Below, one piece after another: positions 2,071 through 47,432 of a stretch of DNA of 64,000 bases (positions are counted from its first letter, which is position 1; the number at the start of each line of letters is the position of its first letter). A program made the translations under genes and the position numbers. The notes below the pieces were generated by a model. The model made no database searches, had not been told where the DNA came from, and was given only the letters and a program-made list of their open reading frames with translations. This stretch comes from Xestospongia muta (Eukaryota; Porifera; Demospongiae; Haplosclerida; Petrosiidae): contig OY848917.1 in NCBI GenBank assembly GCA_963693285.1, positions 64,501 to 128,500 on the forward strand, in the 5' to 3' direction.

Positions 2071-3104
2071 ATGGCATCCCAAATTGTTCTTGTTCTGATC
2101 CTTTTGGTTTTGTTACAGATGCTTCCAATGCCATCTTTAAAGTTGATGTAGCTCCAATAAGTCTCTAAAGGAATCAGATTCTCGTCTGAATCCTTTTGAT
2201 TTTCTTACAGTTACTTCCAATGCTATTGCTAAAGTTGACGAGGTTCCCAAAGAGTTTCTGAATCTAGTGGTAGTTGTACAGGATGCTAAAACGTTGATAG
2301 ATGAGGCAGAAAACAAGGATGAAGACGTTGCTACCACCATTATCCAAGTACATGAAGCTGTTGATACTGCTTTTGTTCATGCTCGTTCCTATATCACCAA
2401 ATGTTATGAGGTTGGTGACTATATCTGTGATGAAGTAGAAAAGGTTGTCAAAGCAATAGAGGAAGGAAATGTGGAAGGATTCAAGGATTTCCTTGAGGAA
2501 GTTTTGGCTAAGTCAGAAAGCTGCCAGAAAGACATTACGACTCTTTTAGACTTTATTGAAAAGGAGAAAGAGAAAATAATTGAAGAAAAGAAAAAAGCAA
2601 AAACAAAAAAAGATGAAGCTGCAGCAAGTGATAGAAATAAAAGTATTGCAAAAGGTGTAGCTGGTGGAGGATTAGTTGCTGCTGGAGGTGGAGTGATAGC
2701 AGCTGGAGCTCTTTTAATTGGACCTCAAGCAATTGTAACTGTTCCTACATTACTGGGGGTTGGACTATTTGGTGCTGCAGCATGTACAATATATAGTGCC
2801 GTGTGGGGATCTTCTTCACCTTACCAATTTTATGGAAAAGCCATCAAAGCCTTTGAAGACTTGAGAGAAGCTCTTGCAAAGATTGAAAATGCCCTAAAGA
2901 AAGCTAATGAACAATTAAGAATAACAAAATAATTTAAGTGAAATGAAAGGCAAGAGCGGCATAAAAGACTTTATTAAGAGAAGCATTATAAAACAACTTG
3001 GAACAGTCAAAGTTCAATCAGAACATTTAAAGGAGTATTGTGGACCATTGAAAGATGCCAAAGATCTAGAAGATTTCAAAAACACATACAAAACAGCTAA
3101 ATAG
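2071..3104 (+). pseudogene. HARSY family, subfamily X (MASKSGG type), unit A copy
   Basis: This is the unit A counterpart of the intact gene at 34503-35456. The core (HARSYITKCYEVGDYICDE), hydrophobic segment and C-terminal motif (EYCGPLKDAKDLEDF) are recognisable, but not in one frame. The 5' end begins with an ATG at 2071 and then carries a partial internal duplication (2094-2156 and 2185-2248) with stops between the copies. The longest open stretch starts at 2267. Near 2915 an indel replaces the NEQLKLGIDNN helix and shifts the frame to a stop at 2930-2932; coding similarity resumes in another frame to a TAG at 3102-3104. All three units share these two defects. Confidence 0.75.
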
Positions 3105-3215
3105 ATAAAAAGTTTTTCTGAGGTGGTAATATTGATGTATAACGTATTGTTATTAGCTAGTAGTTGTCTTTAATGATTGTTAATTTAAATGTCCCTTTTG
3201 TTAAAATTATTGTAA

Positions 3216-3745
3216 AATGCCAAAAGTAAAATATCCTACTATCAACTTGTTATTTAATAAAATAAAGAACTCTTCAATACATCGTGTGGACATTTACTCC
3301 CTCATTAACAACAAGTAATGAATATAATTATACTACATTGTGGTATGCTACTAATAAATACAATATTACTGTTATAGGTTATATCATTAGTGGGTGGGAC
3401 ATTCCATTTTGTAACTGAGCAGTTTAGATGTAACCAATATCTGAATTATGTCATTGTATTGATCATTATTTTGTGACTTCTATTATGGTTCTAGATGCAC
3501 TTGGGTGGACTCCTATAATATATTCATATTATATTTACTTGGTATAAATATGTCAATGTGGAATCGTTCTCTCATAAAGAATGATCATGTTTCTACTGGA
3601 GACTGTTTTAGACAACTAAACTGTAAAAATCTAATTCATTGAAATTTACTACTTGGACTGAACAGTGTTGTCATCATGTCCTCAATTAATTTGTTGTTAA
3701 AATATTAGGAGAGCGAAACGTTTTAATAACAAGTTATTAAACTTT
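3216..3745 (+). repeat. Dispersed intergenic repeat of about 530 bp
   Basis: AT-rich block between the convergent X and MAFK genes, beginning around AAATATCCTACTATCAACTT and ending around AGGAGAGCGAAACG. It recurs at 7837-8365 and 12258-12790 by tandem duplication, inverted at 45240-45790, and as partial inverted copies around 19360-19895 and 34120-34375. No terminal repeats or coding potential were seen. It travels with family genes, so it may simply be an ancestral 3' intergenic segment. Confidence 0.7.
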
Positions 3746-3823
3746 TATGTGAACTTTTTAAAACTATAAGGCAAGACATTTTAGCAGAATATTTGAAGTA
3801 ATAGTTACTACAAAAAAGCAAAG

Positions 3824-4903
3824 TTATTTCATTTCTAACAACTTAATAAATGCTTCCAAGCTCTTTGCATTGACTAATGGATGACAGTATTCTTTTAGCA
3901 CGTTGGTTTCTTTTGTAACTGTCTTGAGTTTCTTCAAAATGGATCGTTTAACTTGTCCACTACCAGATCGCCCTTTCACTGGTTTTAACTTTTCCAATCG
4001 TTCATCATCTTCATATACATCATTTAAATTGTTATCAATGGCAGTTTTTAAATGCTCATTGACATTTTTCAAACTGGTCTCAATTTGTATTAGTTTGTTT
4101 TTCATCTTATAGACAGCGACGAGTGCTTTCATACAAAATTCTTCCACTTTCTTACTTTCATTATAATTCTTATGACCACGAACAGCAACTACAAGTCCTG
4201 CCAAGGCTACACCAAGTCCAATGGGAACTGCAATAACTCCTCCCAGAACTAGTGCTTGCGGTGTTACCATAGTAACAATTACACCACCCACAAGGACTGG
4301 TAGGTAACCAACACCACCAGCTATTGCTGTCACTCCACTTGCCGTAGTAACAGCTCCTATTAAAGCTCCTGTACCTGCTACAGCAGATGTAATGAGAGCA
4401 TCAGTACATTTATTATGTGCTTTGTCTTTCTTTTCTTCTATCATACTCTGTCTTTCACTGATAGACTCCTTCTCAGCATTAATAAAATCTATCAAAGTAC
4501 ATAAATCTTTCTGGCAACATTTTGACTTGGATAAGACCTCTTCCAAAAAATCCTTGAATTCTTCCACATTCCCTTCTTCTATTGCTTTGATAGTGTATTG
4601 TTCCTCATCACAGATATAGTCAGCTAACTCATGACATTTGGTGACGTAAGATCGAGCATGAACGAAGGTAGTATCAATAGTTGCCTTCACTTGAAGAACG
4701 GCGCCAGCCACTTCTTCATCGTGAATGTCTTCGTCTTTCAGCTGTGGTATCTCATGTATTTTAGCCAGCAACTCCTTGAACTCATTTGGGACAGCTTTTG
4801 CCTTTTCAAAAGAGTCGCAAAGCTCTTGCAGAGCTGCGTCAGTTGGAGTGTCAGGAACTAAGCTGTGTTCAGTGCAGTCATCATCACTTAACTTGAACGC
4901 CAT
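3824..4903 (-). CDS. HARSY family protein, MAFK subfamily, unit A (359 aa)
   Basis: Intact single-exon frame. Residues 1-79 form a charged helical N-terminus rich in Asp/Glu. Residues 82-150 hold the core (HARSYVTKCHELADYICDE, GNVEEFKDFLEEVLSKSKCC). Residues 168-242 are a long Gly/Ala/Val hydrophobic stretch that could make a membrane hairpin. Residues 255-293 are an amphipathic helix with NEHLKTAIDNN, and 335-352 carry the EYCHPLVNAKSLEAF motif. No signal peptide is evident. The ATG is the first in frame and lies just downstream of a TGCTGAGTCA site. It converges on the X pseudogene. Function unknown; membrane insertion is an inference from the hydrophobic core. Confidence 0.8.
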   Translation of the reverse strand: MAFKLSDDDCTEHSLVPDTPTDAALQELCDSFEKAKAVPNEFKELLAKIHEIPQLKDEDIHDEEVAGAVLQVKATIDTTFVHARSYVTKCHELADYICDEEQYTIKAIEEGNVEEFKDFLEEVLSKSKCCQKDLCTLIDFINAEKESISERQSMIEEKKDKAHNKCTDALITSAVAGTGALIGAVTTASGVTAIAGGVGYLPVLVGGVIVTMVTPQALVLGGVIAVPIGLGVALAGLVVAVRGHKNYNESKKVEEFCMKALVAVYKMKNKLIQIETSLKNVNEHLKTAIDNNLNDVYEDDERLEKLKPVKGRSGSGQVKRSILKKLKTVTKETNVLKEYCHPLVNAKSLEAFIKLLEMK

Positions 4904-4909
4904 ATTTAC

Positions 4910-5696: not shown

Positions 5697-6040
5697 ATGG
5701 CCTCCAAAAAAACAGAGCAGAGTTCATCCATGGGTGGTTCTTGGTGTAACTTGACTATGATGACATCATAATGAAATGACACATAGTAATGTCATCATAT
5801 TGATGACATCACCTAAACCTTAAACCAAACCTAACATTATTAACTCTATGACACATAGTGATGTCATCATAGGACATGTTGTTACATCATCAGTCAAGTT
5901 ACACCAAGAAGCACCCTCATCCATTGACGGTTGTGTCAATGAACTTGACACACTTGTCAATACTGTCACAGAGACAACACCAGCTGTTTCAACTGAGCTC
6001 TGTAAACTGCTTTCTGATTTGAAAGAAAAGCTTGTTCATG
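5697..6040 (+). pseudogene. MASK-ETEQ 5' fragment, unit A, interrupted by a MITE
   Basis: The ATG at 5697 begins the MASK-ETEQ N-terminus. After about 11 codons the frame is broken by a 185-bp MITE (5732-5916). The N-terminal coding sequence (SIDGCVNELDTLVNTVTET) resumes after it and reaches the GTTCATG breakpoint, where it runs into the antisense of the integrase exon of unit B. No core or hydrophobic domain remains. Confidence 0.8.
5732..5916. mobile_element. 185-bp MITE with 25-bp terminal inverted repeats and an 8-bp target duplication
   Basis: The left end GGGTGGTTCTTGGTGTAACT and the reverse complement of the right end agree at 24 of 25 positions. TCATCCAT flanks both sides (5724-5731 and 5917-5924). 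Units B and C carry the uninterrupted single TCATCCAT, so the empty site is known. Subterminal GATGACATCA-type repeats occur inside. The 8-bp duplication fits hAT-, Mutator- or Merlin-like families; no transposase is encoded. Confidence 0.9.
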
Positions 6041-6548
6041 CAACGTTATATTGCCAACGATGAAGAGTGCTATGTAGCCTAGTTTCCAGTCCCAAGGGGT
6101 CAACACGACGAATTGACTCTCTCACTCTTTCTCTTTGCAATATCACACCATTAACTTTAAGCAGAGTCTGTATTGATCGTGTGCCACAAGCAGGTAAGCG
6201 TGTTACAATCTCCTTAACTAGGTCATCCAAATCTTGATTAGTTATTTCACTGAATCGATTGAATTCTATCCCAAACTCCTTTAGTTTTCTTTGAATCGTA
6301 CCTATTGAGCAACCAATCAGGATAGCAATTTCAGTTTCTTTAAATCCATTTTCAACCAAGAATCTAACTTGATCCTCACATATGTCTAAAGGTCGTCTCA
6401 CACCCGAAGTAATCACCTCTATCTCATAGTCAGTATTTAATTGCACAATCAGTTGTTGGACTACTCTAGTCACAGCAGTGAAGTCGTGACGATTAGGAAC
6501 CAGCTGTTCCAGCTGTACACACGCTTCCAATTTTTGGCCTACTAACAT
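6036..6548 (-). pseudogene. Integrase N-terminal fragment, unit B
   Basis: 170 codons identical in type to the first half of the integrase at 399-1931 (helix-turn-helix-like region), cut off at the unit junction just before the catalytic WHIDGYHK block. It cannot encode an integrase core. Confidence 0.85.
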
Positions 6549-6687: not shown

Positions 6688-7720
6688 ATGGCATCCCAAA
6701 TTGTTCTTGTTCTGATCCTTTTGGTTTTGTTACAGATGCTTCCAATGCCATCTTTAAAGTTGATGTAGCTCCAATAAGTCTCTAAAGGAATCAGATTCTC
6801 GTCTGAATCCTTTTGATTTTCTTACAGTTACTTCCAATGCTATTGCTAAAGTTGACGAGGTTCCCAAAGAGTTTCTGAATCTAGTGGTAGTTGTACAGGA
6901 TGCTAAAACGTTGATAGATGAGGCAGAAAACAAGGATGAAGACGTTGCTACCACCATTATCCAAGTACATGAAGCTGTTGATACTGCTTTTGTTCATGCT
7001 CGTTCCTATATCACCAAATGTTATGAGGTTGGTGACTATATCTGTGATGAAGTAGAAAAGGTTGTCAAAGCAATAGAGGAAGGAAATGTGGAAGGATTCA
7101 AGGATTTCCTTGAGGAAGTTTTGGCTAAGTCAGAAAGCTGCCAGAAAGACATTACGACTCTTTTAGACTTTATTGAAAAGGAGAAAGAGAAAATAATTGA
7201 AGAAAAGAAAAAAGCAAAACAAAAAAAGATGAAGCTGCAGCAAGTGATAGAAATAAAAGTATTGCAAAAGGTGTAGCTGGTGGAGGATTAGTTGCTGCTG
7301 GAGGTGGAGTGATAGCAGCTGGAGCTCTTTTAATTGGACCTCAAGCAATTGTAACTGTTCCTACATTACTGGAGGTTGGACTATTTGGGGCTGCAGCATG
7401 TACAATATATAGTGCCGTGTGGGGATCTTCTTCACCTTACCAATTTTATGGAAAAGCCACCAAAGCCTTTGAAGACTTGAGAGAAGCTCTTGCAAAGATT
7501 GAAAATGCCCTAAAGAAAGCTAATGAACAATTAAGAATAACAAAATAATTTAAGTGAAATGAAAGGCAAGAGCGGCATAAAAGACTTTATTAAGAGAAGC
7601 ATTATAAAACAACTTGGAACAGTCAAAGTTCAATCAGAACAATTAAAGGAGTATTGTGGACCATTGAAAGATGCCAAAGATCTAGAAGATTTCAAAAACA
7701 CATACAAAACAGCTAAATAG
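6688..7720 (+). pseudogene. HARSY subfamily X pseudogene, unit B
   Basis: Same 5' duplication and 3' indel as unit A, plus loss of one A near 7220 that shifts the frame inside the Lys-rich linker, before the hydrophobic segment. The longest upstream frame ends at 7276 and the hydrophobic part reopens at 7309-7548. The additional break shows that decay continued after duplication. Confidence 0.75.
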
Positions 7721-8439: not shown

Positions 8440-9516
8440 TTATTTCATTTCTAACAACTTAATAAATGCTTCCAAGCTCTTTGCATTGACTAATGGATGA
8501 CAGTATTCTTTTAGCACGTTGGTTTCTTTTGTAACTGTCTTGAGTTTCTTCAAAATGGATCGTTTAACTTGTCCACTACCAGATCGCCCTTTCACTGGTT
8601 TTAACTTTTCCAATCGTTCATCATCTTCATATATATCATTTAAATTGTTATCAATGGCAGTTTTTAAATGCTCATTGACATTTTTCAAACTGGTCTCAAT
8701 TTGTATTAGTTTGTTTTTCATCTTATAGACAGCGACGAGTGCTTTCATACAAAATTCTTCCACTTTCTTACTTTCTTTATAATTCTTATGACCACGAACA
8801 GCAACTACAAGTCCTGCCAAGGCTACACCAAGTCCAATGGGAACTGCAATAACTCCTCCCAGAACTAGTGCTTGCGGTGTTACCATAGTAACAATTACAC
8901 CACCCACAAGGACTGGTAGGTAACCAACACCACCAGCTATTGCTGTCACTCCACTTGCCGTAGTAACAGCTCCTATTAAAGCTCCTGTACCTGCTACAGC
9001 AGATGTAATGAGAGCATCAGTACATTTATTATGTGCTTTGTCTTTCTTTTCTTCTATCATACTCTGTCTTTCACTGATAGACTCCTTCTCAGCATTAATA
9101 AAATCTATCAAAGTACACAAATCTTTCTGGCAACATTTTGACTTGGATAAGACCTCTTCCAAAAAATCCTTGAATTCTTCCACATTCCCTTCTTCTATTG
9201 CTTTGATAGTGTATTGTTCCTCATCACAGATATAGTCAGCTAACTCATGACATTTGGTGACGTAAGATCGAGCATGAACGAAGGTAGTATCAATAGTTGC
9301 CTTCACTTGAAGAACGGCGCCAGCCACTTCATCGTGAATGTCTTCGTCTTTCAGCTGTGGTATCTCATGTATTTTAGCCAGCAACTCCTTGAACTCATTT
9401 GGGACAGCTTTTGCCTTTTCAAAAGAGTCGCAAAGCTCTTGCAGAGCTGCGTCAGTTGGAGTGTCAGGAACTAAGCTGTGTTCAGTGCAGTCATCATCAC
9501 TTAACTTGAACGCCAT
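8440..9516 (-). CDS. HARSY family protein, MAFK subfamily, unit B (358 aa)
   Basis: Intact frame, nearly identical to the unit A protein. One of the paired Glu residues near position 63 is missing (an in-frame GAA loss) and there are a few substitutions (Asn to Lys near residue 248, Val to Ile near 296). All domains are retained. The in-frame nature of the only indel, beside the shattered neighbour gene in the same unit, suggests that MAFK is under constraint. Confidence 0.8.
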   Translation of the reverse strand: MAFKLSDDDCTEHSLVPDTPTDAALQELCDSFEKAKAVPNEFKELLAKIHEIPQLKDEDIHDEVAGAVLQVKATIDTTFVHARSYVTKCHELADYICDEEQYTIKAIEEGNVEEFKDFLEEVLSKSKCCQKDLCTLIDFINAEKESISERQSMIEEKKDKAHNKCTDALITSAVAGTGALIGAVTTASGVTAIAGGVGYLPVLVGGVIVTMVTPQALVLGGVIAVPIGLGVALAGLVVAVRGHKNYKESKKVEEFCMKALVAVYKMKNKLIQIETSLKNVNEHLKTAIDNNLNDIYEDDERLEKLKPVKGRSGSGQVKRSILKKLKTVTKETNVLKEYCHPLVNAKSLEAFIKLLEMK

Positions 9517-10309: not shown

Positions 10310-10483
10310 ATGGCCTCCAAAGAAACAGAGCAGAGTTCATCCATTGACGGTTGTGTCAATGAACTTGACACACTTGTCAATACTGTCACAGAGACAACAC
10401 CAGCTGTTTCAACTGAGCTCTGTAAACTGCTTTCTGATTTGAAAGAAAAGCTTGTTCATGCAACGTTATATTGCCAACGATGA
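10310..10483 (+). pseudogene. Chimeric 57-codon frame: MASK-ETEQ N-terminus joined to antisense integrase
   Basis: The ATG at 10310 opens the MASK-ETEQ N-terminus, stays in frame to the GTTCATG junction, then reads antisense integrase sequence (ATLYCQR) to a TGA at 10481-10483. It keeps the intact promoter region of the parent gene, so it may be transcribed. It has only the variable N-terminal helix region and no core. Coding function is doubtful. Confidence 0.6.
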
Positions 10484-11107: not shown

Positions 11108-12141
11108 ATGGCATCCCAAATTGTTCTTGTTCTGATCCTTTTGGTTTTGTTACAGATGCTTCCAATGCCATCTTTAAAGTTGATGTAGCTCCAATAAGTC
11201 TCTAAAGGAATCAGATTCTCGTCTGAATCCTTTTGATTTTCTTACAGTTACTTCCAATGCTATTGCTAAAGTTGACGAGGTTCCCAAAGAGTTTCTGAAT
11301 CTAGTGGTAGTTGTACAGGATGCTAAAACGTTGATAGATGAGGCAGAAAACAAGGATGAAGACGTTGCTACCACCATTATCCAAGTACATGAAGCTGTTG
11401 ATACTGCTTTTGTTCATGCTCGTTCCTATATCACCAAATGTTATGAGGTTGGTGACTATATCTGTGATGAAGTAGAAAAGGTTGTCAAAGCAATAGAGGA
11501 AGGAAATGTGGAAGAATTCAAGGATTTCCTTGAGGAAGTTTTGGCTAAGTCAGAAAGCTGCCAGAAAGACATTACGACTCTTTTAGACTTTATTGAAAAG
11601 GAGAAAGAGAAAATAATTGAAGAAAAGAAAAAAGCAAAAACAAAAAAAGATGAAGCTGCAGCAAGTGATAGAAATAAAAGTATTGCAAAAGGTGTAGCTG
11701 GTGGAGGATTAGTTGCTGCTGGAGGTGGAGTGATAGCAGCTGGAGCTCTTTTAATTGGACCTCAAGCAATTGTAACTGTTCCTACATTACTGGGAGTTGG
11801 ACTATTTGGTGCTGCAGCATGTACAATATATAGTGCCGTGTGGGGATCTTCTTCACCTTACCAATTTTATGGAAAAGCCATCAAAGCCTTTGAAGACTTG
11901 AGAGAAGCTCTTGCAAAGATTGAAAATGCCCTAAAGAAAGCTAATGAACAATTAAGAATAACAAAATAATTTAAGTGAAATGAAACGCAAGTGCGGCATA
12001 AAAGACTTTATTAAGAGAAGCATTATAAAACAACTTGGAACAGTCAAAGTTCAATCAGAACATTTAAAGGAGTATTGTGGACCATTGAAAGATGCCAAAG
12101 ATCTAGAAGATTTCAAAAACACATACAAAACAGCTAAATAG
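11108..12141 (+). pseudogene. HARSY subfamily X pseudogene, unit C
   Basis: Shares the 5' internal duplication with stops and the C-terminal indel of unit A, but keeps the Lys-rich linker in frame, so core and hydrophobic segment are open from 11304 to 11969. It has a Gly to Glu change in the GNVEEF motif that matches the other subfamilies, possibly by gene conversion. Confidence 0.75.
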
Positions 12142-12860: not shown

Positions 12861-13940
12861 TTATTTCATTTCTAACAACTTAATAAATGCTTCCAAGCTC
12901 TTTGCATTGACTAATGGATGACAGTATTCTTTTAGCACGTTGGTTTCTTTTGTAACTGTTTTGAGTTTCTTCAAAATGGATCGTTTAACTTGTCCACTAC
13001 CAGATCGCCCTTTCACTGGTTTTAACTTTTCCAATCGTTCATCATCTTCATATACATCATTTAAATTGTTATCAATGGCAGTTTTTAAATGCTCATTGAC
13101 ATTTTTCAAACTGGTCTCAATTTGTATTAGTTTGTTTTTCATCTTATAGACAGCGACGAGTGCTTTCATACAAAATTCTTCCACTTTCTTACTTTCTTTA
13201 TAATTCTTATGACCACGAACAGCAACTACAAGTCCTGCCAAGGCTACACCAAGTCCAATGGGAACTGCAATAACTCCTCCCAGAACTAGTGCTTGCGGTG
13301 TTACCATAGTAACAATTACACCACCCACAAGGACTGGTAGGTAACCAACACCACCAGCTATTGCTGTCACTCCACTTGCCGTAGTAACAGCTCCTATTAA
13401 AGCTCCTGTACCTGCTACAGCAGATGTAATGAGAGCATCAGTACATTTATTATGTGCTTTGTCTTTCTTTTCTTCTATCATACTCTGTCTTTCACTGATA
13501 GACTCCTTCTCAGCATTAATAAAATCTATCAAAGTACACAAATCTTTCTGGCAACATTTTGACTTGGATAAGACCTCTTCCAAAAAATCCTTGAATTCTT
13601 CCACATTCCCTTCTTCTATTGCTTTGATAGTGTATTGTTCCTCATCACAGATATAGTCAGCTAACTCATGACATTTGGTGACGTAAGATCGAGCATGAAC
13701 GAAGGTAGTATCAATAGTTGCCTTCACTTGAAGAACGGCGCCAGCCACTTCTTCATCGTGAATGTCTTCGTCTTTCAGCTGTGGTATCTCATGTATTTTA
13801 GCCAGCAACTCCTTGAACTCATTTGGGACAGCTTTTGCCTTTTCAAAAGAGTCGCAAAGCTCTTGCAGAGCTGCGTCAGTTGGAGTGTCAGGAACTAAGC
13901 TGTGTTCAGTGCAGTCATCATCACTTAACTTGAACGCCAT
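12861..13940 (-). CDS. HARSY family protein, MAFK subfamily, unit C (359 aa)
   Basis: Intact and almost the same protein as at 3824-4903. N-terminal acidic helices, core, 75-residue hydrophobic stretch, NEHLKTAIDNN helix and EYCHPLVNAKSLEAF tail are all present. The TGCTGAGTCA site lies upstream at 13947-13956. With units A and B, this gives three expressible copies of one protein in about 10 kb. Confidence 0.8.
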   Translation of the reverse strand: MAFKLSDDDCTEHSLVPDTPTDAALQELCDSFEKAKAVPNEFKELLAKIHEIPQLKDEDIHDEEVAGAVLQVKATIDTTFVHARSYVTKCHELADYICDEEQYTIKAIEEGNVEEFKDFLEEVLSKSKCCQKDLCTLIDFINAEKESISERQSMIEEKKDKAHNKCTDALITSAVAGTGALIGAVTTASGVTAIAGGVGYLPVLVGGVIVTMVTPQALVLGGVIAVPIGLGVALAGLVVAVRGHKNYKESKKVEEFCMKALVAVYKMKNKLIQIETSLKNVNEHLKTAIDNNLNDVYEDDERLEKLKPVKGRSGSGQVKRSILKKLKTVTKETNVLKEYCHPLVNAKSLEAFIKLLEMK

Positions 13941-17130: not shown

Positions 17131-17154
17131 GACCTACATTGGTTAAGTAACAAT

Positions 17155-33105: not shown

Positions 33106-33228
33106 CTTTGTCGTTTGCGGAAGTAGCTGCACGAAATAGCTGTCACGTGCAGACACGCACCAATCAGTAACAGCTATTTTAAAAATTAAATATTCCCTAT
33201 TATTCAAAACTTGAAACGAACGTTTTAA

Positions 33229-34502: not shown

Positions 34503-35456
34503 CTATTTACTTGTTTTGTATATCTTTTTGAAATCTTCTAGATCTTTGGCATCTTTCAATGGTCGACAATACTCCTTTAAATGTTCTGATTGAACTTTGA
34601 CTGTTCCCATTTTTTTAATAATGCTCTTCTTTATAAAGTCTTTGTCCAACTTGTCGGACTTTTCTTTCATGTCACTTAAATTATTATCAATTCCTAGTTT
34701 AAGTTGTTCGTTAACTTTCTTTAGGGCATTTTCAATCTTTGCAAGAATTTCTCTCAAGTCTTCAAAGGCTTTGATGGCTTTTCCATAAAATTGGTAGAGT
34801 GAAGATCCCCACACGGCACTATATATTGTACATGCTGCAGCTCCAAATAGTCCAACCCCCAGTAATGTAGGAACAGTTACAATTGCTTGAGGTCCAATTA
34901 AAAGAGCTCCAGCTGCTATCACTCCACCTCCAGCAGCAACTAATCCTCCACCAGCTACACCTTTTGCAATACTTTTATTTCTATCACTTGCTGCAGCTTC
35001 ATCTTTTTTTGTTTTTGCTTTTTTCTTTTCTTCAATTATTTTCTCTTTCTCCTTTTCAATAAAGTCTAAAAGAGTCGTAATGTCTTTCTGGCAGCTTTCT
35101 GACTTATCCAAAACTTCCTCAAGGAAATCCTTGAATCCTTCCACATTTCCTTCCTCTATTGCTTTGACAACCTTTTCTACTTCATCACAGATATAGTCAC
35201 CAACCTCATAACATTTGGTGATATAGGAACGAGCATGAACAAAAGCAGTATCAACAGCTTCGCTTGCTTGGATAATGGCGGTAGCAATGTCTTCATCCTT
35301 GCTTTTTGCTTCATCTATCAACGTTTTAGCATCTTCTATAACTCCCACTAATTTTAGAAACTCTTTAGGAACCTCTTCAACTTTAGCAATAGCATTGGTA
35401 GCATCTGTAAGAAAATCAAAAGGATCAGGACAAGAACCTCCTGATTTAGACGCCAT
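34503..35456 (-). CDS. HARSY family protein, subfamily X (MASKSGG; 317 aa)
   Basis: Only intact member of the subfamily represented by the three tandem pseudogenes. Start chosen at MASKSGGSCPDPFDF (35456); an in-frame ATG 39 codons upstream overlaps the promoter-like block. The N-terminus has an acidic helix (DAKTLIDEAKSKDED), then the core HARSYITKCYEVGDYICDE with VEKVVKAIEEGNVEGF, a Lys-rich linker (EKKKAKTKKDEAAASD), and a hydrophobic stretch GGGLVAAGGGVIAAGALLIG. NEQLKLGIDNN and EYCRPLKDAKDLEDF close it. The polyadenylation signal lies almost at the stop. Confidence 0.82.
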   Translation of the reverse strand: MASKSGGSCPDPFDFLTDATNAIAKVEEVPKEFLKLVGVIEDAKTLIDEAKSKDEDIATAIIQASEAVDTAFVHARSYITKCYEVGDYICDEVEKVVKAIEEGNVEGFKDFLEEVLDKSESCQKDITTLLDFIEKEKEKIIEEKKKAKTKKDEAAASDRNKSIAKGVAGGGLVAAGGGVIAAGALLIGPQAIVTVPTLLGVGLFGAAACTIYSAVWGSSLYQFYGKAIKAFEDLREILAKIENALKKVNEQLKLGIDNNLSDMKEKSDKLDKDFIKKSIIKKMGTVKVQSEHLKEYCRPLKDAKDLEDFKKIYKTSK

Positions 35457-35963: not shown

Positions 35964-36812
35964 TTACACTTCCAGGTAATTATAATGTTGACTTAATATA
36001 ATAATGAAGTCATCTAGAGTTGCTGCATCTTTTAATTGTTGGCAATAGTCCTTTATTTTTCTTGCTTCTGGTATAACTTTATGTGTAACTTGAGTACCAT
36101 TAGGTCTACTACTACCTTGGATTTGTTTACCAACAAGATAATCAACTGTTGATGATTTGAAACGAGTGTTTACTTCAACAAATCTTCCCTCGATGTGGTA
36201 AATGTGAAGACGCATATTTTGTAAAATTTCAGTTATTTCATCTTGCTTCTTTTGGTAATGATTTATTAACATTGCAACAGCTCCACCAATAACAGCTCCA
36301 CAAATGCCACCTGCAAGAATCGAAACTCCTATACCAGTAACTAACCCAAACCCTCCACCTCCAGCAAGTCCAGTGACAGTACCTGCTCCAACACCAATTG
36401 CTATGTTTTTACATTTGAGATTTTTGGCAGCACGATGTTCCTCTACATCATTAATGTGTCTCTCTTCTCTCTCTATAAACTCTAAAAGAGTCTGTAGGTC
36501 TTTATGACATCCTTTTGATTTAGACAAGACCTCTTCCAAGTAATCCTTGAATTCTTCCACATTCCCTTCTTCTATTACTTTGATAGTGTATTGTTCCTCA
36601 TCACAGATATAGTCAGCTAACTCATGACATTTGGTGATATAAGATCGAGCATGAACAAAGGCAGTTGACAGAGCTGGTTTCTGCTTTAGAATAGGAATAA
36701 GTTTAGGGAGCTCAAGTAAACCATTTTTTGTCATTTCCGAGACAGCTCTAAGATGAGTTTCAAGAGCGTAGACACAGCTATCTATGGCTGGACTGTGATT
36801 TGTTGTGGCCAT
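35964..36812 (-). CDS. HARSY family protein, subfamily 7 (MATT; 282 aa), block 2
   Basis: Intact. N-terminus, core and C-terminal third are nearly identical to 20071-20919, but the hydrophobic part reads GVGAGTVTGLAGGGGFGLVT and ILAGGICGAVIGGAVAM, with Gly-zipper periodicity and no basic break. The block 1 copy instead has a KVVRLTSNRE insert. This gives a continuous potential membrane hairpin here and an interrupted one there. Confidence 0.82.
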   Translation of the reverse strand: MATTNHSPAIDSCVYALETHLRAVSEMTKNGLLELPKLIPILKQKPALSTAFVHARSYITKCHELADYICDEEQYTIKVIEEGNVEEFKDYLEEVLSKSKGCHKDLQTLLEFIEREERHINDVEEHRAAKNLKCKNIAIGVGAGTVTGLAGGGGFGLVTGIGVSILAGGICGAVIGGAVAMLINHYQKKQDEITEILQNMRLHIYHIEGRFVEVNTRFKSSTVDYLVGKQIQGSSRPNGTQVTHKVIPEARKIKDYCQQLKDAATLDDFIIILSQHYNYLEV

Positions 36813-37008: not shown

Positions 37009-37941
37009 CTAAATACTAGCTATTTTCACAAACTCTTCTAAACTTTTTGCCCTCACTAATGGTTCACAATAGTCTTTAACATGTTTTGTTTGCGATGTAA
37101 TATTCTTGATTTTTAATACAATGATATGTTTGGATGACCCGCTATCTCTTGATAACTCATCTTTTAACACTTCAAGATTATCATCAATGACTCGCTGTAA
37201 CTGAAGACTAACTGTTTTTAAACTCTCTTCAATTAATTCGAGGTTCTTTGTCATTTCTTTGATGGCTTTTATTGCCTTTTCACAATACAACTCTATTTTT
37301 TTGTTTGTTTTATAGAGCTCACCACCTTTAACTGTAGCATACAGAGAAAGTAATGCAACACCTAATCCAACTGGTACAACAATGACAGCTTGAGGACCTG
37401 CCAACCCAGCCACTGCTACTCCAGCTCCAGCTACTGCTATACTTCCACCAACTACTGCAATACCAGCTCCTGCAGCAGCTTTCATCTTAGCATTATTTTG
37501 TCTATGTTCTATTTTCCTCTCTTGTTTGTCAATAAAAGGTTTTTCTTCAGTCTCAATGTACTCTATCAGTGTTCTCAAATCTTTCTGACAACACGTTGAC
37601 TTTGACAAGACCTCTTCAAAGAAATTCTTGAATTCTTCCACATTCCCTTCTTCTACTGCTTTCATAGTGTATCTCTCCTCCTCACAGACATAATCTGCTA
37701 ACTCATGACACTTCATAATATAGGAACGAGCATGAATAAATGTAGTTTTAACATTCTCTTTCACTCGAGTTACTGCATCAGCAACTTCTTTGTCTGGAAC
37801 ATCTCCCTCATCTAACTCTGGTATCTCATTTATTTCAGCTAATGTTTGTCCAACTTTAGCTACAACTGCTTCGGCCATTTCTTTTACAATAACATCAGCT
37901 AATGTTTGAAGGACTTGACAGCAAACATCACTTGATGCCAT
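37009..37941 (-). CDS. HARSY family protein, subfamily 8 (MASS; 310 aa), block 2
   Basis: Intact and the same length as the block 1 copy. Core variant IHARSYIMKCHELADYVCEE; hydrophobic region GAGIAVVGGSIAVAGAGVAV to VPVGLGVALLSLYATV; tail DYCEPLVRAKSLEEF. Most substitutions against block 1 are conservative. The gene is followed on the same strand by the subfamily 7 gene after about 200 bp. Confidence 0.82.
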   Translation of the reverse strand: MASSDVCCQVLQTLADVIVKEMAEAVVAKVGQTLAEINEIPELDEGDVPDKEVADAVTRVKENVKTTFIHARSYIMKCHELADYVCEEERYTMKAVEEGNVEEFKNFFEEVLSKSTCCQKDLRTLIEYIETEEKPFIDKQERKIEHRQNNAKMKAAAGAGIAVVGGSIAVAGAGVAVAGLAGPQAVIVVPVGLGVALLSLYATVKGGELYKTNKKIELYCEKAIKAIKEMTKNLELIEESLKTVSLQLQRVIDDNLEVLKDELSRDSGSSKHIIVLKIKNITSQTKHVKDYCEPLVRAKSLEEFVKIASI

Positions 37942-38427: not shown

Positions 38428-39699
38428 TTATTTCATCACATAACAGAGGGCAATGAAATCTTCTAATGTAGATGCATCTTTTAATGGTTGGCAATGGTCT
38501 TTTAAGTAACTTGCTTTACCTATCACCCTCCTTATAGCTTGAATAGTAGAACTTTTGTTATCTTGATGTTGATAGTAGAATCGTTTGTTCACAAGATAAT
38601 CATCTAATGTCAGTTTAAAACGAGAGTTGACTCCACCTAATCGTTTCTCAATGTTGTACAGATGAAGTTGTATTTCACGTAAAATCTCCTGACGAGAAAC
38701 CTGAGTGTCTTCTTTTAAATGTATTATTATGCCCATTAATCCACCAAGTGTAGCACCAAGAACTGCCCCGGTCAGAGAAGTAGTTTGTAGATCACATTGT
38801 AATCCTATCACCATACCTCCAACTATAGCTCCACCTAGAACTCCACCCAGACCTATGCTAGCTATTATAGTCATTTCATTGTTTGGGTCTAATTTTTTCA
38901 TTGCGTTTCCAATATATATACCAATTGTTGTAACCATTCCACCAATGACAGCTCCAAGAATGGCAGCAGATAGACCAGTCTGTTCATTATCATATCTTGA
39001 TGTTTTAAGATGGACATTTCGTTCTATGACATCACTTCTCAAATAGACTCCTACTGTTCCACCGATAACAGCCCCAAAAGCTACAATAGCAAGGCCAACC
39101 ACCACGATATTCAAATCAGTTCCCATGACTTCACCTTTAACAAAACCCATTATTTTAGCCATTGCACCAATCACAGCCCCAACAACTATTCCTGCTACCA
39201 CAAGTACTCCAAGATCACAGTATAATCCCAGTAGTATGCCTCCAAGAATACCCAGTGCAATACCTGCTACAATCCCTATTCCTGTGTTTATCAGAGCTTT
39301 GTTTTTCCTTGTCAGTCGATCCTCTTCATCATTAAAGTGTCTCTCTTCTCTCTCTATAAACTCTAAAAGAGTCTGTAGGTCTTTGTGACATCCCTTTGAT
39401 TTAGACAAGACCTCTTCCAAGTAATCCCTGAATTCTTCCACATTCCCTTCTTCTATTGCTTTGATAGTGTATTGTTCCTCATCACAGATATAGTCAGCTA
39501 ACTCATGACATTTGGTGATATAAGATCGAGCATGAACAAAGGCAGTTGACATGGATGGCTTTTCTTTCAAATCAGAAAGCAACTTAGAGAGCTCAGTTGA
39601 AACAGCTGGTGTTGTCTCTGTGACAGTATTGACAAGTGTGTCAAGTTCATTGACACAACCGTCAATGGATGAACTCTGCTCTGTTTCTTTCGAGGCCAT
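38428..39699 (-). CDS. HARSY family protein, MASK-ETEQ subfamily 9 (423 aa), block 2
   Basis: Intact. Same six-segment hydrophobic layout as 22773-24044, with scattered substitutions (for example EEFRDYLEE, ERNVHLKTS, TGAVLGATLGG). The tail DHCQPLKDASTLEDF is unchanged. The 5' flank is shorter than in block 1: the usual promoter block is cut and only ATATTCATAGTCTC remains (about 39740-39760), so expression may differ. Confidence 0.83.
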   Translation of the reverse strand: MASKETEQSSSIDGCVNELDTLVNTVTETTPAVSTELSKLLSDLKEKPSMSTAFVHARSYITKCHELADYICDEEQYTIKAIEEGNVEEFRDYLEEVLSKSKGCHKDLQTLLEFIEREERHFNDEEDRLTRKNKALINTGIGIVAGIALGILGGILLGLYCDLGVLVVAGIVVGAVIGAMAKIMGFVKGEVMGTDLNIVVVGLAIVAFGAVIGGTVGVYLRSDVIERNVHLKTSRYDNEQTGLSAAILGAVIGGMVTTIGIYIGNAMKKLDPNNEMTIIASIGLGGVLGGAIVGGMVIGLQCDLQTTSLTGAVLGATLGGLMGIIIHLKEDTQVSRQEILREIQLHLYNIEKRLGGVNSRFKLTLDDYLVNKRFYYQHQDNKSSTIQAIRRVIGKASYLKDHCQPLKDASTLEDFIALCYVMK

Positions 39700-39831
39700 A
39701 TTGCAACAGTTATATACTGGGGATGTCTAGGATCATTATAACAATATTCATAGTCTCTAAAAACACTATATTTACAGTTTGCCAAACCCTCCCTTCACGT
39801 GGAGGGAGGTGCTGGTTACGGAGCACACAAT

Positions 39832-40783
39832 ATGGAGGAAGAAAGTAATAGTGTTTCCAACGACCTCTGCCACTAGGCACTACAAGCGTTATTGGATGTT
39901 GCTATCAAGAAAACAGTACAGGCTATCGTAACTAAAGTCTCAGAGACTCTATCAGAAATAAACAAAGTTCCAGAATTGGATGATGAAAAAATCCCAGACA
40001 AACGTGTAGCAGATGCTGTTACTGAAGTCATAGAAAGTGTCAAAACTACTTTTGTTCATGCTCGATCTTATATCACCAAATGTCATGAGTTAGCTGACTA
40101 TATCTGTGATGAGGAACAATACACTATCAAAGTAATAGAAGAAGGGAATGTTGAAAGTTTTAAAGACTATATGAGAGAGGTCTTGTCCAAGTCAGCAACT
40201 TGTCAAAAAGATATCAAGACACTTATTGATTATATTGAAACTGAAGAAAGACCTTTGATAAAAAAGAAAAGGAAATTGAAAGCAGACATAGCGATGCAAA
40301 GATAAAAGCAACTGCGGGGCTAGTGTTGCTGGGGTCTTTGGGGCTGGAACAATAGGGAGTGCTGGTTTAGCAGCTGCAGGTTTAGCTGGTCCTCATGCAG
40401 CTGTTATTGCTCCTCTAGGACTTGGGGCAGCATTAATTTGTTTAGCTGTTACAATTAAAGGTGGTGACATTTATGCAAAATATACACAGATAGAATTGTA
40501 TTGTGAGAAAGCAATCAGAGCTATCAAAGAATTGAAGAAATCGCTTGAATTGATTGAAAAAAGATTACAGGAGACATGTGATTTCTTAAAATTAGCAGTC
40601 AATGGTAACCTTGAGATAATTAAAGAAAATGACATTAATAAAATGTCAAAAGGAGATCAAACAGCACAACAATCTATTATAGTTCAAGTCAAAACAATAG
40701 CAGTACAAGGACAACAATTAAAGGAATACTGTCAGCCGTTAATAAATGCCAAAACATAAGAAGACTTCTCTAAAATAATATAA
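39832..40783 (+). pseudogene. HARSY subfamily 10 pseudogene, block 3 (uninterrupted copy)
   Basis: The ATG opens MEEESNSVSNDLCH, then TAG replaces Glu (39874-39876). The rest of the N-terminus and core (HARSYITKCHELADYICDEE, GNVESFKDYMREVLSKSATC) are in frame from 39892. A frame slip near 40285-40315 disrupts the linker; the hydrophobic region follows, then from 40496 a helix and the tail, with a TTA to TAA stop inside the last motif (40757-40759). It carries no mobile elements and so defines the empty sites for the block 2 copy. Confidence 0.82.
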
Positions 40784-40927: not shown

Positions 40928-41905
40928 ATGGCGAGCAAGATCTCAGATACTGAGCACTTTACTACCGTGAACTGTACTACTGAACAGTCTGATACGTTTC
41001 ACTCTGATACAACCCATACTGCTACTAGAATTCACTCTATAACTGAAGATTGTACTACTGAACAGTCTGCTAATACAGTCACTCATGTTCTTGAAATTGT
41101 CTCAGCCATTGTTGATATAGAGAGAATTAAAGAAGTCTCATCGCAAATTACAAAGTTAGGCACAATAACGGACCATCCTGTGTTTAATGATAAAAGTAAA
41201 GAAGAGACAGTAGCTATTCAGCAGTTGAAGGAAGCTCTTCAAGTTACCTTTGTCTATTTACGATCCTACATTACCAAGTGTTATGAATTAGCCGGCTATA
41301 TCTGTAATGAAGAAGAAATTGTGTTAAAAACAATAAAAGAAGGGAATATGGAAGACTTTAATGATTATCTAGAGGAGGTGTTATCCAAATCAAAAGGCTG
41401 CCAGAATGACCTAAAGACACTATTAGAGTATATTGAAACTAAGGAGATGCCTCCAGTTACAAGTAGTTCAACAATTTGTCGTGTCGGAACTGTAGTGGGA
41501 GGTGCAACAGCAGTGACTGGAGCAGGTCTGGTTTTGGCAGGTCCATATACTGTGGCCATTGGAGTAGGTGCTCTTGCATTGGGTGTAGCTGCAGTGATTT
41601 ATTATAATGTCAACCCTGGTCAAGAGAGTGCTAATGTAATAAAGATTATCAATGATTTTAAAGATAACCTTCAAGATATTAAGGACAATTTACAAGCAAC
41701 CAATGACCAGTTAAAGGAAGTAATTGATCGTTATCTCGTCAAGTATGAGGGTGTAGAACCTTATATCATGTCTCAACAAATTAACACACTAGAGGCAGCT
41801 GCTGTCAAAGATACTATTGCACGAGCCAAAACAATCAAAGATTATTGTCAGCCATTTATGAATGTCAAAAGTTTGGAGGATTTCTTAGTGTTACTATATG
41901 ATTAA
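40928..41905 (+). CDS. HARSY family protein, subfamily 11 (MASKIS; 325 aa), block 3
   Basis: Intact, with start ACCATGG at 40928. Core variant YLRSYITKCYELAGYICNEE: two changes (Asp to Gly, Asp to Asn) at positions otherwise conserved in the family. One codon is lost in the hydrophobic stretch (PYTVAIGVG against PYTVVTIGVG, with a further substitution). Tail DYCQPFMNVKSLEDF. Loss of acidic core residues may mean relaxed constraint. Confidence 0.8.
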   Translation: MASKISDTEHFTTVNCTTEQSDTFHSDTTHTATRIHSITEDCTTEQSANTVTHVLEIVSAIVDIERIKEVSSQITKLGTITDHPVFNDKSKEETVAIQQLKEALQVTFVYLRSYITKCYELAGYICNEEEIVLKTIKEGNMEDFNDYLEEVLSKSKGCQNDLKTLLEYIETKEMPPVTSSSTICRVGTVVGGATAVTGAGLVLAGPYTVAIGVGALALGVAAVIYYNVNPGQESANVIKIINDFKDNLQDIKDNLQATNDQLKEVIDRYLVKYEGVEPYIMSQQINTLEAAAVKDTIARAKTIKDYCQPFMNVKSLEDFLVLLYD

Positions 41906-43136: not shown

Positions 43137-44069
43137 ATGGCTTGTAAGGTCGCTGATGTTAGAGGAACTACTTTAACTGCTAGTGCATTTGAAGGACTGT
43201 CCGAAGTATTCCAAAAGACAAAAATTGTTCCAGATGAGGTCCAAAAACTTTTAATCACACTTAACCAGATACCCGAATTTAAGGATCAGAGTAGCATTCA
43301 AGATAAAGAAGTGAAAACTGTTGTGTTTCGTTTTAAAATGCTCGTTGAAACTACTTTCTTGTTGGCTCAATCATATGTCACCAAATGTCACAAGTTAGCT
43401 GACTATATTTGTCATGAAGAACCACACACAATTAAAGTGATTAATGAAGGGAATGTGAAAGAATTTAAAGACTTCCTCAAAGACATCTTGTCTCAGTCCA
43501 AAAATTGCCAAGAACAATTGAAAACTTTAATAGAGTTTATGGAAGCAGAAAGAAAACAGTTAATTTGTGGGAAACAGACAGTACAAAACAAAGAGAGTGA
43601 AGCTGAAACAAAAGCAATAGCTGCTGGAGTGGCTATAGGAGGAGGCGTCGCCCTTGGAATGATCAGTAGCATTGTTCGCCAAGCTCCAATAGCTGGAATA
43701 GTGGTTGCTGTGGGTGCATCATTACTTGCTGCAGGTGCAGGTATGACTTGGATGTCCATAACAGAAATGGAATTTTATAAAAAAATTGTAAAAGCTTTTC
43801 AAGAAACTCACGATAACCTCAAAGTTATTCAAGATAGCTTGAAAAAAGTCAATGAGCAGCTTAAATTAGCTATTGATAATAATGTTCTAGGCGTGCAGGG
43901 AGAAGATAAAATGAATAAACTCAAGTCTGGCAGTGAATGTATTACGAGTTCCATTTTTAAATCTCTTGGTACACTAATAAAACAAACAGAAACAATCAAA
44001 GAATATTGCCGTCCATTAATCGGGGCCAGTAATTCCGAGGAGTTCTTTATGTTATATCAATTTGTCTAA
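43137..44069 (+). CDS. HARSY family protein, subfamily 5 relative (MACKVAD; 310 aa)
   Basis: Intact. The N-terminus MACKVADVRG and core LAQSYVTKCHKLADYICHEE are similar to the gene at 30618, but the hydrophobic region is about 30 residues shorter (AIAAGVAIGGGVALGMISSI, AGIVVAVGASLLAAGAG). NEQLKLAIDNN and EYCRPLIGASNSEEF close it. A more diverged, older paralogue than the block copies. Confidence 0.82.
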   Translation: MACKVADVRGTTLTASAFEGLSEVFQKTKIVPDEVQKLLITLNQIPEFKDQSSIQDKEVKTVVFRFKMLVETTFLLAQSYVTKCHKLADYICHEEPHTIKVINEGNVKEFKDFLKDILSQSKNCQEQLKTLIEFMEAERKQLICGKQTVQNKESEAETKAIAAGVAIGGGVALGMISSIVRQAPIAGIVVAVGASLLAAGAGMTWMSITEMEFYKKIVKAFQETHDNLKVIQDSLKKVNEQLKLAIDNNVLGVQGEDKMNKLKSGSECITSSIFKSLGTLIKQTETIKEYCRPLIGASNSEEFFMLYQFV

Positions 44070-44368: not shown

Positions 44369-45149
44369 ATGGCCTTCAAGTTAAGTGATGATGACTGCAC
44401 TGAACACAGCTTAGTTCCTGACACTCCAACTGACACAGCTCTGCAAGAGCTTTACGATTCTTTTGAAAAGACTAAAGCTGTCCCACATGAGTTCAAGGAG
44501 TTGCTGGCTAAAATACATGAGATACCACAGCTGAAAGACGAGGACATTCACGATAAAGAAGTGGCTGGAAGCACTTGTTTCTGTCCATGAGATGAAAAAT
44601 AACTTGATAAAAATTGAGACCAATTTTAAAAATGTTAATGAGCATTTAAAAACTGCCATTGATAACAATTTAGAAGATATATACGAAGATACGGAAGCCG
44701 AAGGCGGACATCCAATTCCAATTCTACTTTCCATCGCTCATTGTAGTAAAGCAAGCACCGCGAGCTGTCTCTTAGAATGGAGCGAAGCGACATGTTTCCG
44801 GTTAGGGTGGGGCTATAGGATTTTAACTGTTAAATATTCCATCGAAGGATAGAAAATAGAATTGGAATTGGAATATTTTTGGAAAGCTGTAAAGTAGAAT
44901 TGCATATGGTCGGCAAACTTCAAAGCACAGTATATGAAATTTGAAATAGAATTGGATGTCCGCCTTCCGCTTCCGTACGAAGATGATGAGAGATTGGAAA
45001 AGTTAAAACCAGTGAACGGGCGATCTGGTAGTGGACAAGTTAAACGATCCATTTTGAAAAAAGTCAAGGCAGTTACAAAAGAAACCAATGTGCTAAAAGA
45101 ATTATGTCATGCTAAAAGCTTGGAAGCATATTATTTATGTAGTTGTTAG
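44369..45149 (+). pseudogene. MAFK subfamily pseudogene with deleted middle and a MITE
   Basis: MAFKLSDDDC and the acidic N-terminus are intact to DKEVAG. Then the entire core and hydrophobic region are missing: coding similarity resumes within 10-20 bp at the C-terminal helix (KNVNEHLKTAIDNN). A 286-bp MITE splits the next acidic stretch, and the tail RSGSGQVKRSILKKVK leads to a damaged final motif (LKELCHAKSLEA). Confidence 0.85.
44691..44976. mobile_element. 286-bp MITE with about 28-bp TIRs and 8-bp target duplication
   Basis: ACGGAAGCCGAAGGCGGACA at the left and its inverse at the right (one mismatch). Target duplication ACGAAGAT at 44683-44690 and 44977-44984; intact MAFK genes have one related copy. 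The interior includes ATTCCAATTC-like inverted stretches and is GC-richer than its surroundings. Not the same family as the 185-bp MITE at 5732. Confidence 0.87.
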
Positions 45150-45790: not shown

Positions 45791-45793
45791 TTT

Positions 45794-46169
45794 TTAATTA
45801 TTACTATTAATTAAACAATAAATTGTCACCTCGAATTGTTCACTATAATCTGATCCTCCAAGTGATGTGTTACTGTCACCTTCCTTAAGTAATAGATTAT
45901 CAGGAATATGATGTACCTATAAATAAAAATGTATGCTTGTATAAATTGGAGAATCTGCAATGCAAATACAAGTGATATTATTTACTGATATTTTTTACAC
46001 TTACTGTATTTTCTACTCTTTTGTTTCTTTTTTGAATAATGTGTGAATGTGAATGGTGATGATAAATATGAGAATACAATGCAGAGAAACTTTTCAATGT
46101 TGTTGAGCATCCATTAATACCACAGCAAACTAAAAACCTAGGATCACTGGAGTGCACAGTCCAAGCCAT
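45794..46169 (-). CDS. Small two-exon C2H2-like zinc-finger protein (probable fragment)
   Basis: Exon 1 (46169-46005) reads MAWTVHSSDPRFLVCCGING, then a spaced CSTTLKSFSALYSHIYHHH, a C2H2-like pattern, ending at a GTAAGTG donor. An acceptor at 45917 (TTTATAG) continues in phase (VHHIPDNLLLKEGDSNTS) to a TAA at 45794-45796. About 95 residues. It resembles the N-terminal finger of longer transposase-associated proteins, so it may be an element relic. Neighbouring sequence gives no TIR. Confidence 0.45.
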
Positions 46170-47253
46170 TATATCATATGCTGAAAAGAGCTCAAAGAAG
46201 ATTTTATCTGCTCATCTTGTTGAACTAGATGAATCTGGTAATTAACCTTATACATATTTCATTATAGTATTGTATGAATAATTGTCTATATTGTTTTAAG
46301 TGTAGATGTTTACATGTATTATGTATAGTATCATTAATTTTGTTGTTGTTCACATATACTTCATTATATTAGAATTGTATTGTTTACATGTACTAAATTT
46401 TACTAATGTCTTTTAACAGATGACGTATTGAAGCAATTGATAGCACTTAAGGTGCTTACAGAGTGTTTAATAAAGGGAAAAAACTCACTCTGATACTTAT
46501 ATGAAGAACACACAGTAAGATACATGTAAATGTTTAGTTTGTTATTTTTATATAATAGGCTATGGAGAACATTCAATTGGCATGTAAAACACCACTGCAC
46601 CCCAAAAAAACACAACTAAGAATTGTAGCATTTACTGGGGAAAATGATACTCAGTACTTACTTGTTTGTGAGTAAAAAGTACTATGTAAGATGCCGTCGT
46701 TAGAAGATGCTCTGTTCACCACATTTGCAGCGTACTATTGTTTTAATTTAGAGCATCCCCCAATAATAAAAAATGTATTCTATTTTTTCATGATTTTTTG
46801 TTGAAATATCCAGACTCTTCTAAAAATCTTGTCTTATTTAGCTATTGTATCATAAAATGTAACATATAGTCTTTGCTAACCATATTCATTTTTATGTTCC
46901 TTTTTGTAAATATACTATAGTAAAATCATTTATTGCTCATTTATCTTTTTTCATTTTTTGTAAAGTTACTAATACCTTAGAAGTTATACTTATTGTGATT
47001 CAACCAAAAAACATTATAATAAAAATATAATCACCATGGACAAAGTTAAAGTAACAGCAATCGTTACTTCAACTACTTACATCAGATGTCACTTTAACTC
47101 AAGGTGTGGGTTATAATCACCAGTACATTTTATAGTTGTTTTAACTATTATTTTGATTGGGTTATTTTAATTCAAAACATGGGTTACCTGAGTTGCAGGT
47201 GTTTTGACCCAAACATTTGGGTACTTTCCACTCATCACTTTTTACTTTTTTTT
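46170..47253. other. AT-rich intergenic, no firm gene
   Basis: A possible plus-strand exon pair (SKKILSAHLVELDES to about 46241, resuming at 46421 with DDVLKQLIALKVLTECLIKG) joins in phase and ends at TGA, but no start or homology is recognised. The rest is AT-rich with no pattern. Confidence 0.3.
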
Positions 47254-47432
47254 ATGAACAAAGGCAGTTGACATGGATGGCTTTTCTTTCAAATCAGAAA
47301 GCAACTTAGAGAGCTCAGTTGAAACAGCTGGTGTTGTCTCTGTAACAGTATTGACAAGTGTGTCAAGTTCATCGACACAACCATCAATTGCTGAACTCTG
47401 GTCTGATTCCAGTAATCCAGTTTGGAGGCCAT
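47254..47432 (-). pseudogene. MASK-ETEQ 5' fragment ending at the HARSY breakpoint
   Basis: From ATG (47432) the N-terminus MASK is followed by altered codons and a frame slip, then GCVDELDTLVNTVTETTPAV to STAFVH. The similarity stops exactly at GTTCAT and is followed by A8 on the coding strand. No core remains. This is the most distal family relic toward the DLG5-like locus. Confidence 0.8.

Follow-up and report, generated by a model that had tools for sequence, protein, structure and literature searches.

What kind of protein is encoded by the array of related genes, many of them broken, that lies close to one end of chromosome 1 in the sponge Xestospongia muta? The stretch analyzed here, the window, comprises 64,000 nucleotides of contig OY848917.1 (C1:64501-128500), and the genome searched holds 158,027,690 bases in 28 contigs. 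Genes are named by w and their start position in the window (e.g. w34503). An initial annotation had described an unrecognized family with a core around the motif HARSY, followed by a hydrophobic stretch. We find that the family is genuine, carries no name and is expanding in this sponge, and structure prediction favors, short of proof, a ClyA-class fold for it. As to function, we tentatively propose, with slightly less than even confidence, that the proteins may constitute a latent, ClyA-like, membrane-permeabilizing effector family.

The window contains 21 open reading frames (ORFs) of at least 150 amino acids (aa) with an ATG start, 17 of which belong to the family. Fifteen of these 17 are full-length single-exon genes with both core and C-terminal tail, while w14734 and w17155 are truncated. 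Using tblastn with the 17 family proteins as queries, we counted at least 14 broken copies, including the two truncated ORFs, in agreement with the at least 14 intact and more than 12 broken genes first reported. In 17/17 family ORFs the ATG is preceded, at a distance of 4-50 codons, by an in-frame stop, which indicates that the start codons are well placed, unless coding 5' exons exist. Family matches in the window span 2168-47409, matching the originally delimited stretch (2071..47432), and the whole cluster extends further left beyond the window, occupying C1:33.8-111.9 kb. The members within the window are as follows.

3824..4903, minus strand: intact gene, 359 aa, type MAFKLSDDD, tandem triplication copy 1
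8440..9516, minus strand: intact gene, 358 aa, triplication copy 2
12861..13940, minus strand: intact gene, 359 aa, triplication copy 3
17851..18867, minus strand: intact gene, 338 aa, type MACKSTGTAK, with HARVY as core
20071..20919, minus strand: intact gene, 282 aa, type MATTNHSPA
21112..22044, minus strand: intact gene, 310 aa, type MASSDVCC
22773..24044, minus strand: intact gene, 423 aa, type MASKETEQ, long multi-segment hydrophobic head
29245..30225, plus strand: intact gene, 326 aa, type MASKISDTE
30618..31646, plus strand: intact gene, 342 aa, type MACRITDF
34503..35456, minus strand: intact gene, 317 aa, type MASKSGGSC, protein modeled with AlphaFold2
35964..36812, minus strand: intact gene, 282 aa, paralogue of w20071
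37009..37941, minus strand: intact gene, 310 aa, paralogue of w21112
38428..39699, minus strand: intact gene, 423 aa, paralogue of w22773
40928..41905, plus strand: intact gene, 325 aa, paralogue of w29245
43137..44069, plus strand: intact gene, 310 aa, paralogue of w30618
2168..3101, plus strand: broken copy, triplication unit 1
5908..6060, plus strand: N-terminal fragment
6785..7717, plus strand: broken copy, triplication unit 2
10310..10480, plus strand: N-terminal fragment
11205..12138, plus strand: broken copy, triplication unit 3
14734..15908, plus strand: broken copy, 321-aa open frame without tail
16319..16759, plus strand: C-terminal fragment
17137..17748, plus strand: broken copy, 198-aa open frame (ORF start 17155)
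26603..26802, plus strand: N-terminal fragment
28347..29103, plus strand: broken copy, directly upstream of gene 29245
32511..33121, minus strand: broken copy
39838..40783, plus strand: broken copy upstream of gene 40928
44372..45131, plus strand: broken copy, MAFKLSDDD type
47248..47409, minus strand: N-terminal fragment

Genome searches with three members as queries gave 49, 53 and 47 matches; C1 accounts for 43, 44 and 45 of them, respectively, all at C1:33.8-111.9 kb. The matches outside this cluster are a stop-bearing relic at C3:6.282 Mb and a sister family described below. The 49 own-genome matches of one query lie far beyond chance: the query finds itself at an expect value (E) of 1.4e-232, and the best-matching other type reaches 1.1e-67. 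Searching for the core with a DNA pattern proved useless, with 135 forward and 134 reverse matches versus 151 and 118 in a reversed control. As C1 begins with 2,500 N followed by CCCTAAA-type repeats at 2501-3011, the cluster is subtelomeric on chromosome 1, ~31-109 kb from the telomere-type repeat. This end repeat (C1:2501-3011) is the seven-base CCCTAAA with few six-base units mixed in; the usual animal telomere unit is TTAGGG.

None of the 15 intact proteins and none of four scanned sister proteins (out of 12 sister ORF matches) reached a Pfam cut-off, which bears out the first impression that no named family is recognizable. With no family over cut-off, the confident match to a non-membrane housekeeping family that could have spoken against that annotation did not occur either. 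The closest Pfam line of all, DUF3482 in w35964 (E 2.1e-5), was rejected at 24.5 bits, below the cut-off of 29.2; the copy of w35964 in the protein collection, P0013, carries a PF11981 listing. Lines for DUF5930 and CD59, as well as STING_LBD (E 0.0012) and SLATT_1 (E 0.0023) in w43137 (43137-44069), are under their cut-offs, differ from type to type and were likewise set aside. STING_LBD and SLATT_1 are immune-effector families, and their sub-threshold lines might merit a look. At E 1, PF05791 (Bacillus_HBL) was listed for 0/15 intact proteins, and phmmer with one protein against the PDB gave chance-level matches only, the best being an RNA polymerase subunit at E 0.021. Protein-collection searches, each scoring ~8,000 candidates and therefore uninformative on restriction to sponges, returned only 'ena'/'lgn' or window-encoded entries (16 rows, 22 with an alignment as query and 6 for the sister family). 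The best identities of not-own entries to the window types are 44-98%, so several types exist in other assemblies too. No title in the literature searched, which largely leaves out subscription literature, describes such a sponge family.

Comparing one representative of each of the 8 types (28 pairs), we found the highest mean identity in the core (62%, range 41-93%), followed by helix 2 (53%), helix 3 (44%), helix 5 plus tail (34%), head (30%), helix 1 (29%) and helix 4 (28%). The core had been called invariant, which is too strong given this range and the fact that literal HARSY occurs in 10/15 intact genes, the rest having HARVY, HLRSY, YLRSY, LAQSY and LAQSY. Similarly, the N-termini had been sorted into eight unrelated types; all types are alignable through helix 1, which is about as diverged as the head and helix 4, and the N-termini are better described as one diverged first helix. 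The MATTNH and MASKETEQ types lack a segment after helix 1. Four cysteines, C82, C90, C122 and C297 (w34503 numbering), are kept in at least 90% of 23 aligned proteins and could act as a putative redox latch. By analogy with ClyA, they may alternatively form disulfides. Conserved cysteines thus recur as first described in the core, the second motif and the tail, but not in the head. Windows of transmembrane-strength hydrophobicity (Kyte-Doolittle mean >1.6) are present in 15/15 intact proteins, and the 423-aa type has six of them over ~200 residues. The 'Gly-zipper' of the initial annotation is a loose label, as the longest uncharged run holds from 0 to 7 GxxxG motifs. The proteins show no obvious secretion signal.

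What fold do these parts form? The AlphaFold2 model of w34503 consists of long helices (residues 14-49, 55-101, 105-168, 207-266, 272-301 and 306-316). Judged by position and hydrophobicity, the hydrophobic head lies between helices 3 and 4 in 15/15 sequences and in the model. Searching the PDB with Foldseek placed Hbl-B first (E 2.6e-4, the sole match below 0.001), followed by nine lines for ClyA and HblL1. VIA-align, which re-aligns Foldseek's own matches and in which helical models often score 13-14 without true relatives, gave AhlB 18.5, HblL1 17.5, Hbl-B 17.4, ClyA 17.0, MakE 16.8, SmhA 16.8 and SmhB 16.3. The first 14 VIA-align rows and the first 10 Foldseek rows all belong to one class, the ClyA class. 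The viral structure library BFVD returned no match below 0.001. The family resembles the ClyA/HlyE class (Hbl-B, HblL1, NheA, AhlB, SmhB, MakA/B/E, XaxA/YaxA) in predicted helix order, in the head between helices 3 and 4 and in a size of ~280-420 aa. The HblL1 head is Gly/Ala/Pro-rich, as in the family, according to PMC8065917. The family differs from this class in having no sequence-family match, an animal host, no obvious signal sequence, a paralogue cluster with core exchange and four conserved cysteines.

The genome harbors further families with which this assignment can be compared. A distant sister family is located at C11:1.310-1.342 Mb and C5:7.907 Mb. One sister query yielded 24 matches (11 long ORFs and 2 fragments on C11, one on C5 and 10 in the C1 cluster), and the C5 protein matched itself and six places on C11. 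The sister family has the same layout and a homologous helix 2/3 region (single hhalign comparison of the two profiles: 97.2%, E 4e-11, 77 columns; 96.9% with more rows), shares C122 and has a cysteine within one residue of C90. It differs in its own head and tail and shows 22-31% identity in the genome matches. Profile searches with PF05791 found 16 places, 12 over cut-off, with 11 of these at C7:7654781-7688021 (7.65-7.69 Mb) and one at C5:7084306 (7.08 Mb); of 14 control genomes, 4 had matches, none over cut-off. The open frames at C7 and C5 are ~320-400 aa long and lie on animal chromosomes, and contamination as their source seems unlikely given the chromosome-scale contigs. Rescanning six proteins confirmed the Bacillus_HBL and ApoL families, with PF05791 at E 9.7e-18 to 4.3e-20 in the four Bacillus_HBL proteins. 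These resemble the window family in clustered frames and similar size, and most of those read carry a hydrophobic stretch after long helices; unlike it, they pass PF05791, and they are without profile similarity to it.

Several results weigh against a ClyA-class fold. Residues 164-216 of the w34503 model have a predicted local distance difference test (pLDDT) below 50, with head block means of 28-49. Confidence in the head is too low to show either insertion or the burial in a soluble fold that the initial annotation had considered as a counter-indication. The ten top ClyA-class Foldseek matches have template modeling (TM) scores of only 0.27-0.44 with root mean square deviations of 10-21, compared to 0.61-0.62, on their own shorter length, for two unrelated bundles, one of them designed (6z0c, E 0.064) and the other the pink protein of a fungus (8ii8, E 0.11). 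With VIA-align the pink protein is the first row outside the class; its score of 15.9 equals that of the lower ClyA-class rows, and no designed bundle exceeds 14.5. The sister protein P0017, modeled from a 6-row alignment (pLDDT 60, predicted TM score 0.49), shows a similar long-helix order with a low-confidence head; its best VIA-align matches are designed bundles (15.4), followed by AhlC (14.5, tied), AhlB (13.6) and HblL1 (13.3), and Foldseek found nothing below 0.001 (best ClyA line E 0.16), so this model lends no independent support. Profile comparison with hhalign between the family and the four Bacillus_HBL proteins of the same sponge gave a probability of 2.4% (sister family 8.0%).

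Profile searches of the PDB were no more specific. For the family profile, the best line was SmhB (E 0.025), which covers the head and helix 4; HblL1 came ninth (0.33). The sister profile placed HblL1 third (E 1.8e-4), behind two coiled coils of designed origin. As a positive control, the four sponge Bacillus_HBL proteins retrieved Hbl-B, SmhB, NheA and AhlB at E 1.7e-8 (Hbl-B) to 8.7e-6. A control profile of two sponge ApoL proteins matched MakE (E 9.2e-5) over the head and the next helix, which means that the head-region matches to SmhB and, for the sister, HblL1 are unspecific. We therefore withdrew sequence homology to the ClyA class as a conclusion from these matches. The ApoL-MakE match itself may hint at a relation between ApoL and ClyA-class proteins or reflect shared composition. 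Overall, ClyA-class chains take the top ranks but rival bundles tie or score higher in TM, so the class is favored, not proven.

The most serious alternative, though an unlikely one, is that the proteins are constitutive integral-membrane or membrane-shaping proteins whose head is a permanent transmembrane hairpin, with several passes in the 423-aa type, and that they form no pore. The transmembrane-strength windows described above fit this, similarity of fold is no proof of function and head confidence is low. On the other hand, the class that the model tentatively matches along its full length stays soluble until it inserts, and rapid turnover with many relics is, by general knowledge, unusual for structural genes.

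Less probable again are ApoL-like intracellular membrane proteins, i.e. channels or membrane remodelers that either have a common ancestor with ApoL or share just its layout. The order of parts (helices, hydrophobic stretch, helices) is the same in ApoL, whose layout is described in part in PMC8316464, and ApoL genes are expanded in this very genome: PF05461 has 27 places (C1, C2, C4, C5, C8 and C11), 26 over cut-off, of which 3 pass only with in-frame neighbors and two rows are one gene. None is in this cluster, and 0/14 control genomes have matches. However, PF05461 at E 1 was listed for 0/15 intact and 0/4 scanned sister proteins, though the model detects ApoL elsewhere in the genome, and the PDB ranking favors ClyA-class chains. 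No ApoL N-terminal-domain chain is among the 50 VIA-align rows listed, which excludes nothing. The initial annotation had proposed the layout of ApoL or of alpha-helical pore-formers; the pore-former half agrees with the w34503 model and the PDB comparison, while membership in ApoL finds no support. Equally improbable is a generic long helical coiled-coil family whose ClyA-class match reflects a common arrangement and whose function is unrelated to membranes, as one class fills the first 14 VIA-align and the first 10 Foldseek rows, and in 15/15 proteins the head sits at the insertion point of that class.

How does the locus evolve? On the left, a unit has been triplicated in tandem, the copies starting ~4.6 and 4.4 kb apart, and each unit contains an intact gene together with a broken copy and integrase sequence. 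Identity is 97-100% in most 300-base reference copies and 69% in one integrase stretch. The integrase-like protein (PF24764 rva_4, E 1.1e-72) is located at window 894-1931 with copies near 6036 and 10456, as one frame of 345 aa and two of 170 aa. Other gene pairs are segmental duplicates ~11.7 and 15.7-15.9 kb apart. Overall ratios of nonsynonymous to synonymous substitution rates (dN/dS) are 0.55 and 0.14 for the triplicates, with 1-2 synonymous changes only, and 0.56, 0.69, 0.31, 0.52 and 0.35 for five other within-type pairs (no significance test). Positive selection is not claimed from the C-terminal dN/dS of 1.47 and 1.08 in two pairs because these have only 1 and 3.5 synonymous changes.

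Codon usage points to exchange within the core. We compared 13 genes in 78 non-independent pairs, leaving out w8440 and w12861 as near-identical copies. Shared residues use the same codon more often in the core than elsewhere in 57/78 pairs, 7 of them significant after Bonferroni correction; for w20071 and w38428, the codon is the same at 56/56 positions in the core and 59/93 elsewhere. The simplest reading of these sequences is that the core has been converted or exchanged between the MATTNH, MASKETEQ and MAFKLS types. The significant pairs involve these three types only and the effect is absent in 21/78 pairs, both of which speak against it. Taken together, tandem triplication, segmental duplication, many relics and the gene-conversion signal uphold the rapid birth and death ascribed to the locus at the outset.

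Types with differing coding 5' ends also share an upstream element. The pattern GTGGG-N(8-26)-TTCATAGT has 10 matches in the window versus 0.03 expected, a figure that overstates the case as the copies are partly duplication-related. In eight of the ten, which cover three different types, the ATG of a family ORF or fragment follows at a distance of 30-60 bases; the remaining two lie ~0.3 kb before a fragment and at 38228. One example is given below.

24105..24135, minus strand: upstream element, 60 bases before the ATG

Upstream of gene 38428, window 39700-39810 apparently holds the reverse complement of the w22773 element region, as if flipped.

Outside the family, the left flank of the cluster (C1:31000-40900) contains two short ORFs (128 and 213 aa), neither of which has a Pfam match over cut-off. 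Window 47710-63787 holds, on the minus strand, spliced-gene-like pieces with PDZ-like and coiled-coil parts, all under Pfam cut-offs, and Rfam gave no match for the window at the gathering threshold.

Returning to the proposed membrane-permeabilizing effectors, the proteins would be alpha-helical, probably cytosolic, with the architecture of the ClyA/Hbl/Nhe/Ahl class, in which long helices form a bundle and a hydrophobic head rich in Gly/Ala separates helix 3 from helix 4. The predicted ClyA-class fold, the head at the insertion point and the lack of an obvious secretion signal suggest that the protein would stay latent in the cytosol and insert once triggered. Within this chain, the fold and the head position are the computed elements; cytosolic location, pore formation and an immune or cell-death role are what we infer. 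Upon a trigger, the head would leave its protected state and enter the membrane, where several subunits may then assemble into a pore or lesion that would kill an invader, a symbiont-containing compartment or the own cell. At the locus, copies arise through tandem and segmental duplication and many decay. At least three types have probably converted their helix-2/helix-3 core, while helix 1, head and helix 4 diverge.

The predicted structure thus suggests a home-grown membrane-attacking defense or cell-death family. Immune, symbiont-control, cell-death and self-recognition roles fit the turnover of the locus alike, and nothing here separates them. Components of the tripartite Hbl, Nhe and Ahl systems co-assemble, which offers an analogy for mixed assembly of the cluster types. 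By this analogy, and as a speculation slightly less probable than any of the alternatives above, ClyA-like types might co-assemble, with conversion keeping the assembly core interchangeable and heads and first helices diversifying, to give a combinatorial, possibly individual-specific cytotoxic arsenal for immunity, symbiont control or self-recognition upon tissue contact.

ClyA-class pore-formers are known chiefly from bacteria, and the actinoporin-like fold differs from that predicted for the family. Actinoporin-like proteins are candidate pore-formers already reported in Porifera, according to PMC8778704. If our proposal is true, the cluster would make up a new class among the candidate effectors of animal immunity or cell death, one that is unrecognized by Pfam, has expanded near a chromosome end and apparently exchanges its core. 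As its genome holds three helical, hydrophobic-head families, namely the cluster family with its sister, the Bacillus_HBL type and the ApoL type, this sponge is well suited for studying by what route alpha-helical pore-formers came into animals and how they are used there, and for asking whether ApoL and the ClyA class may have a common origin.

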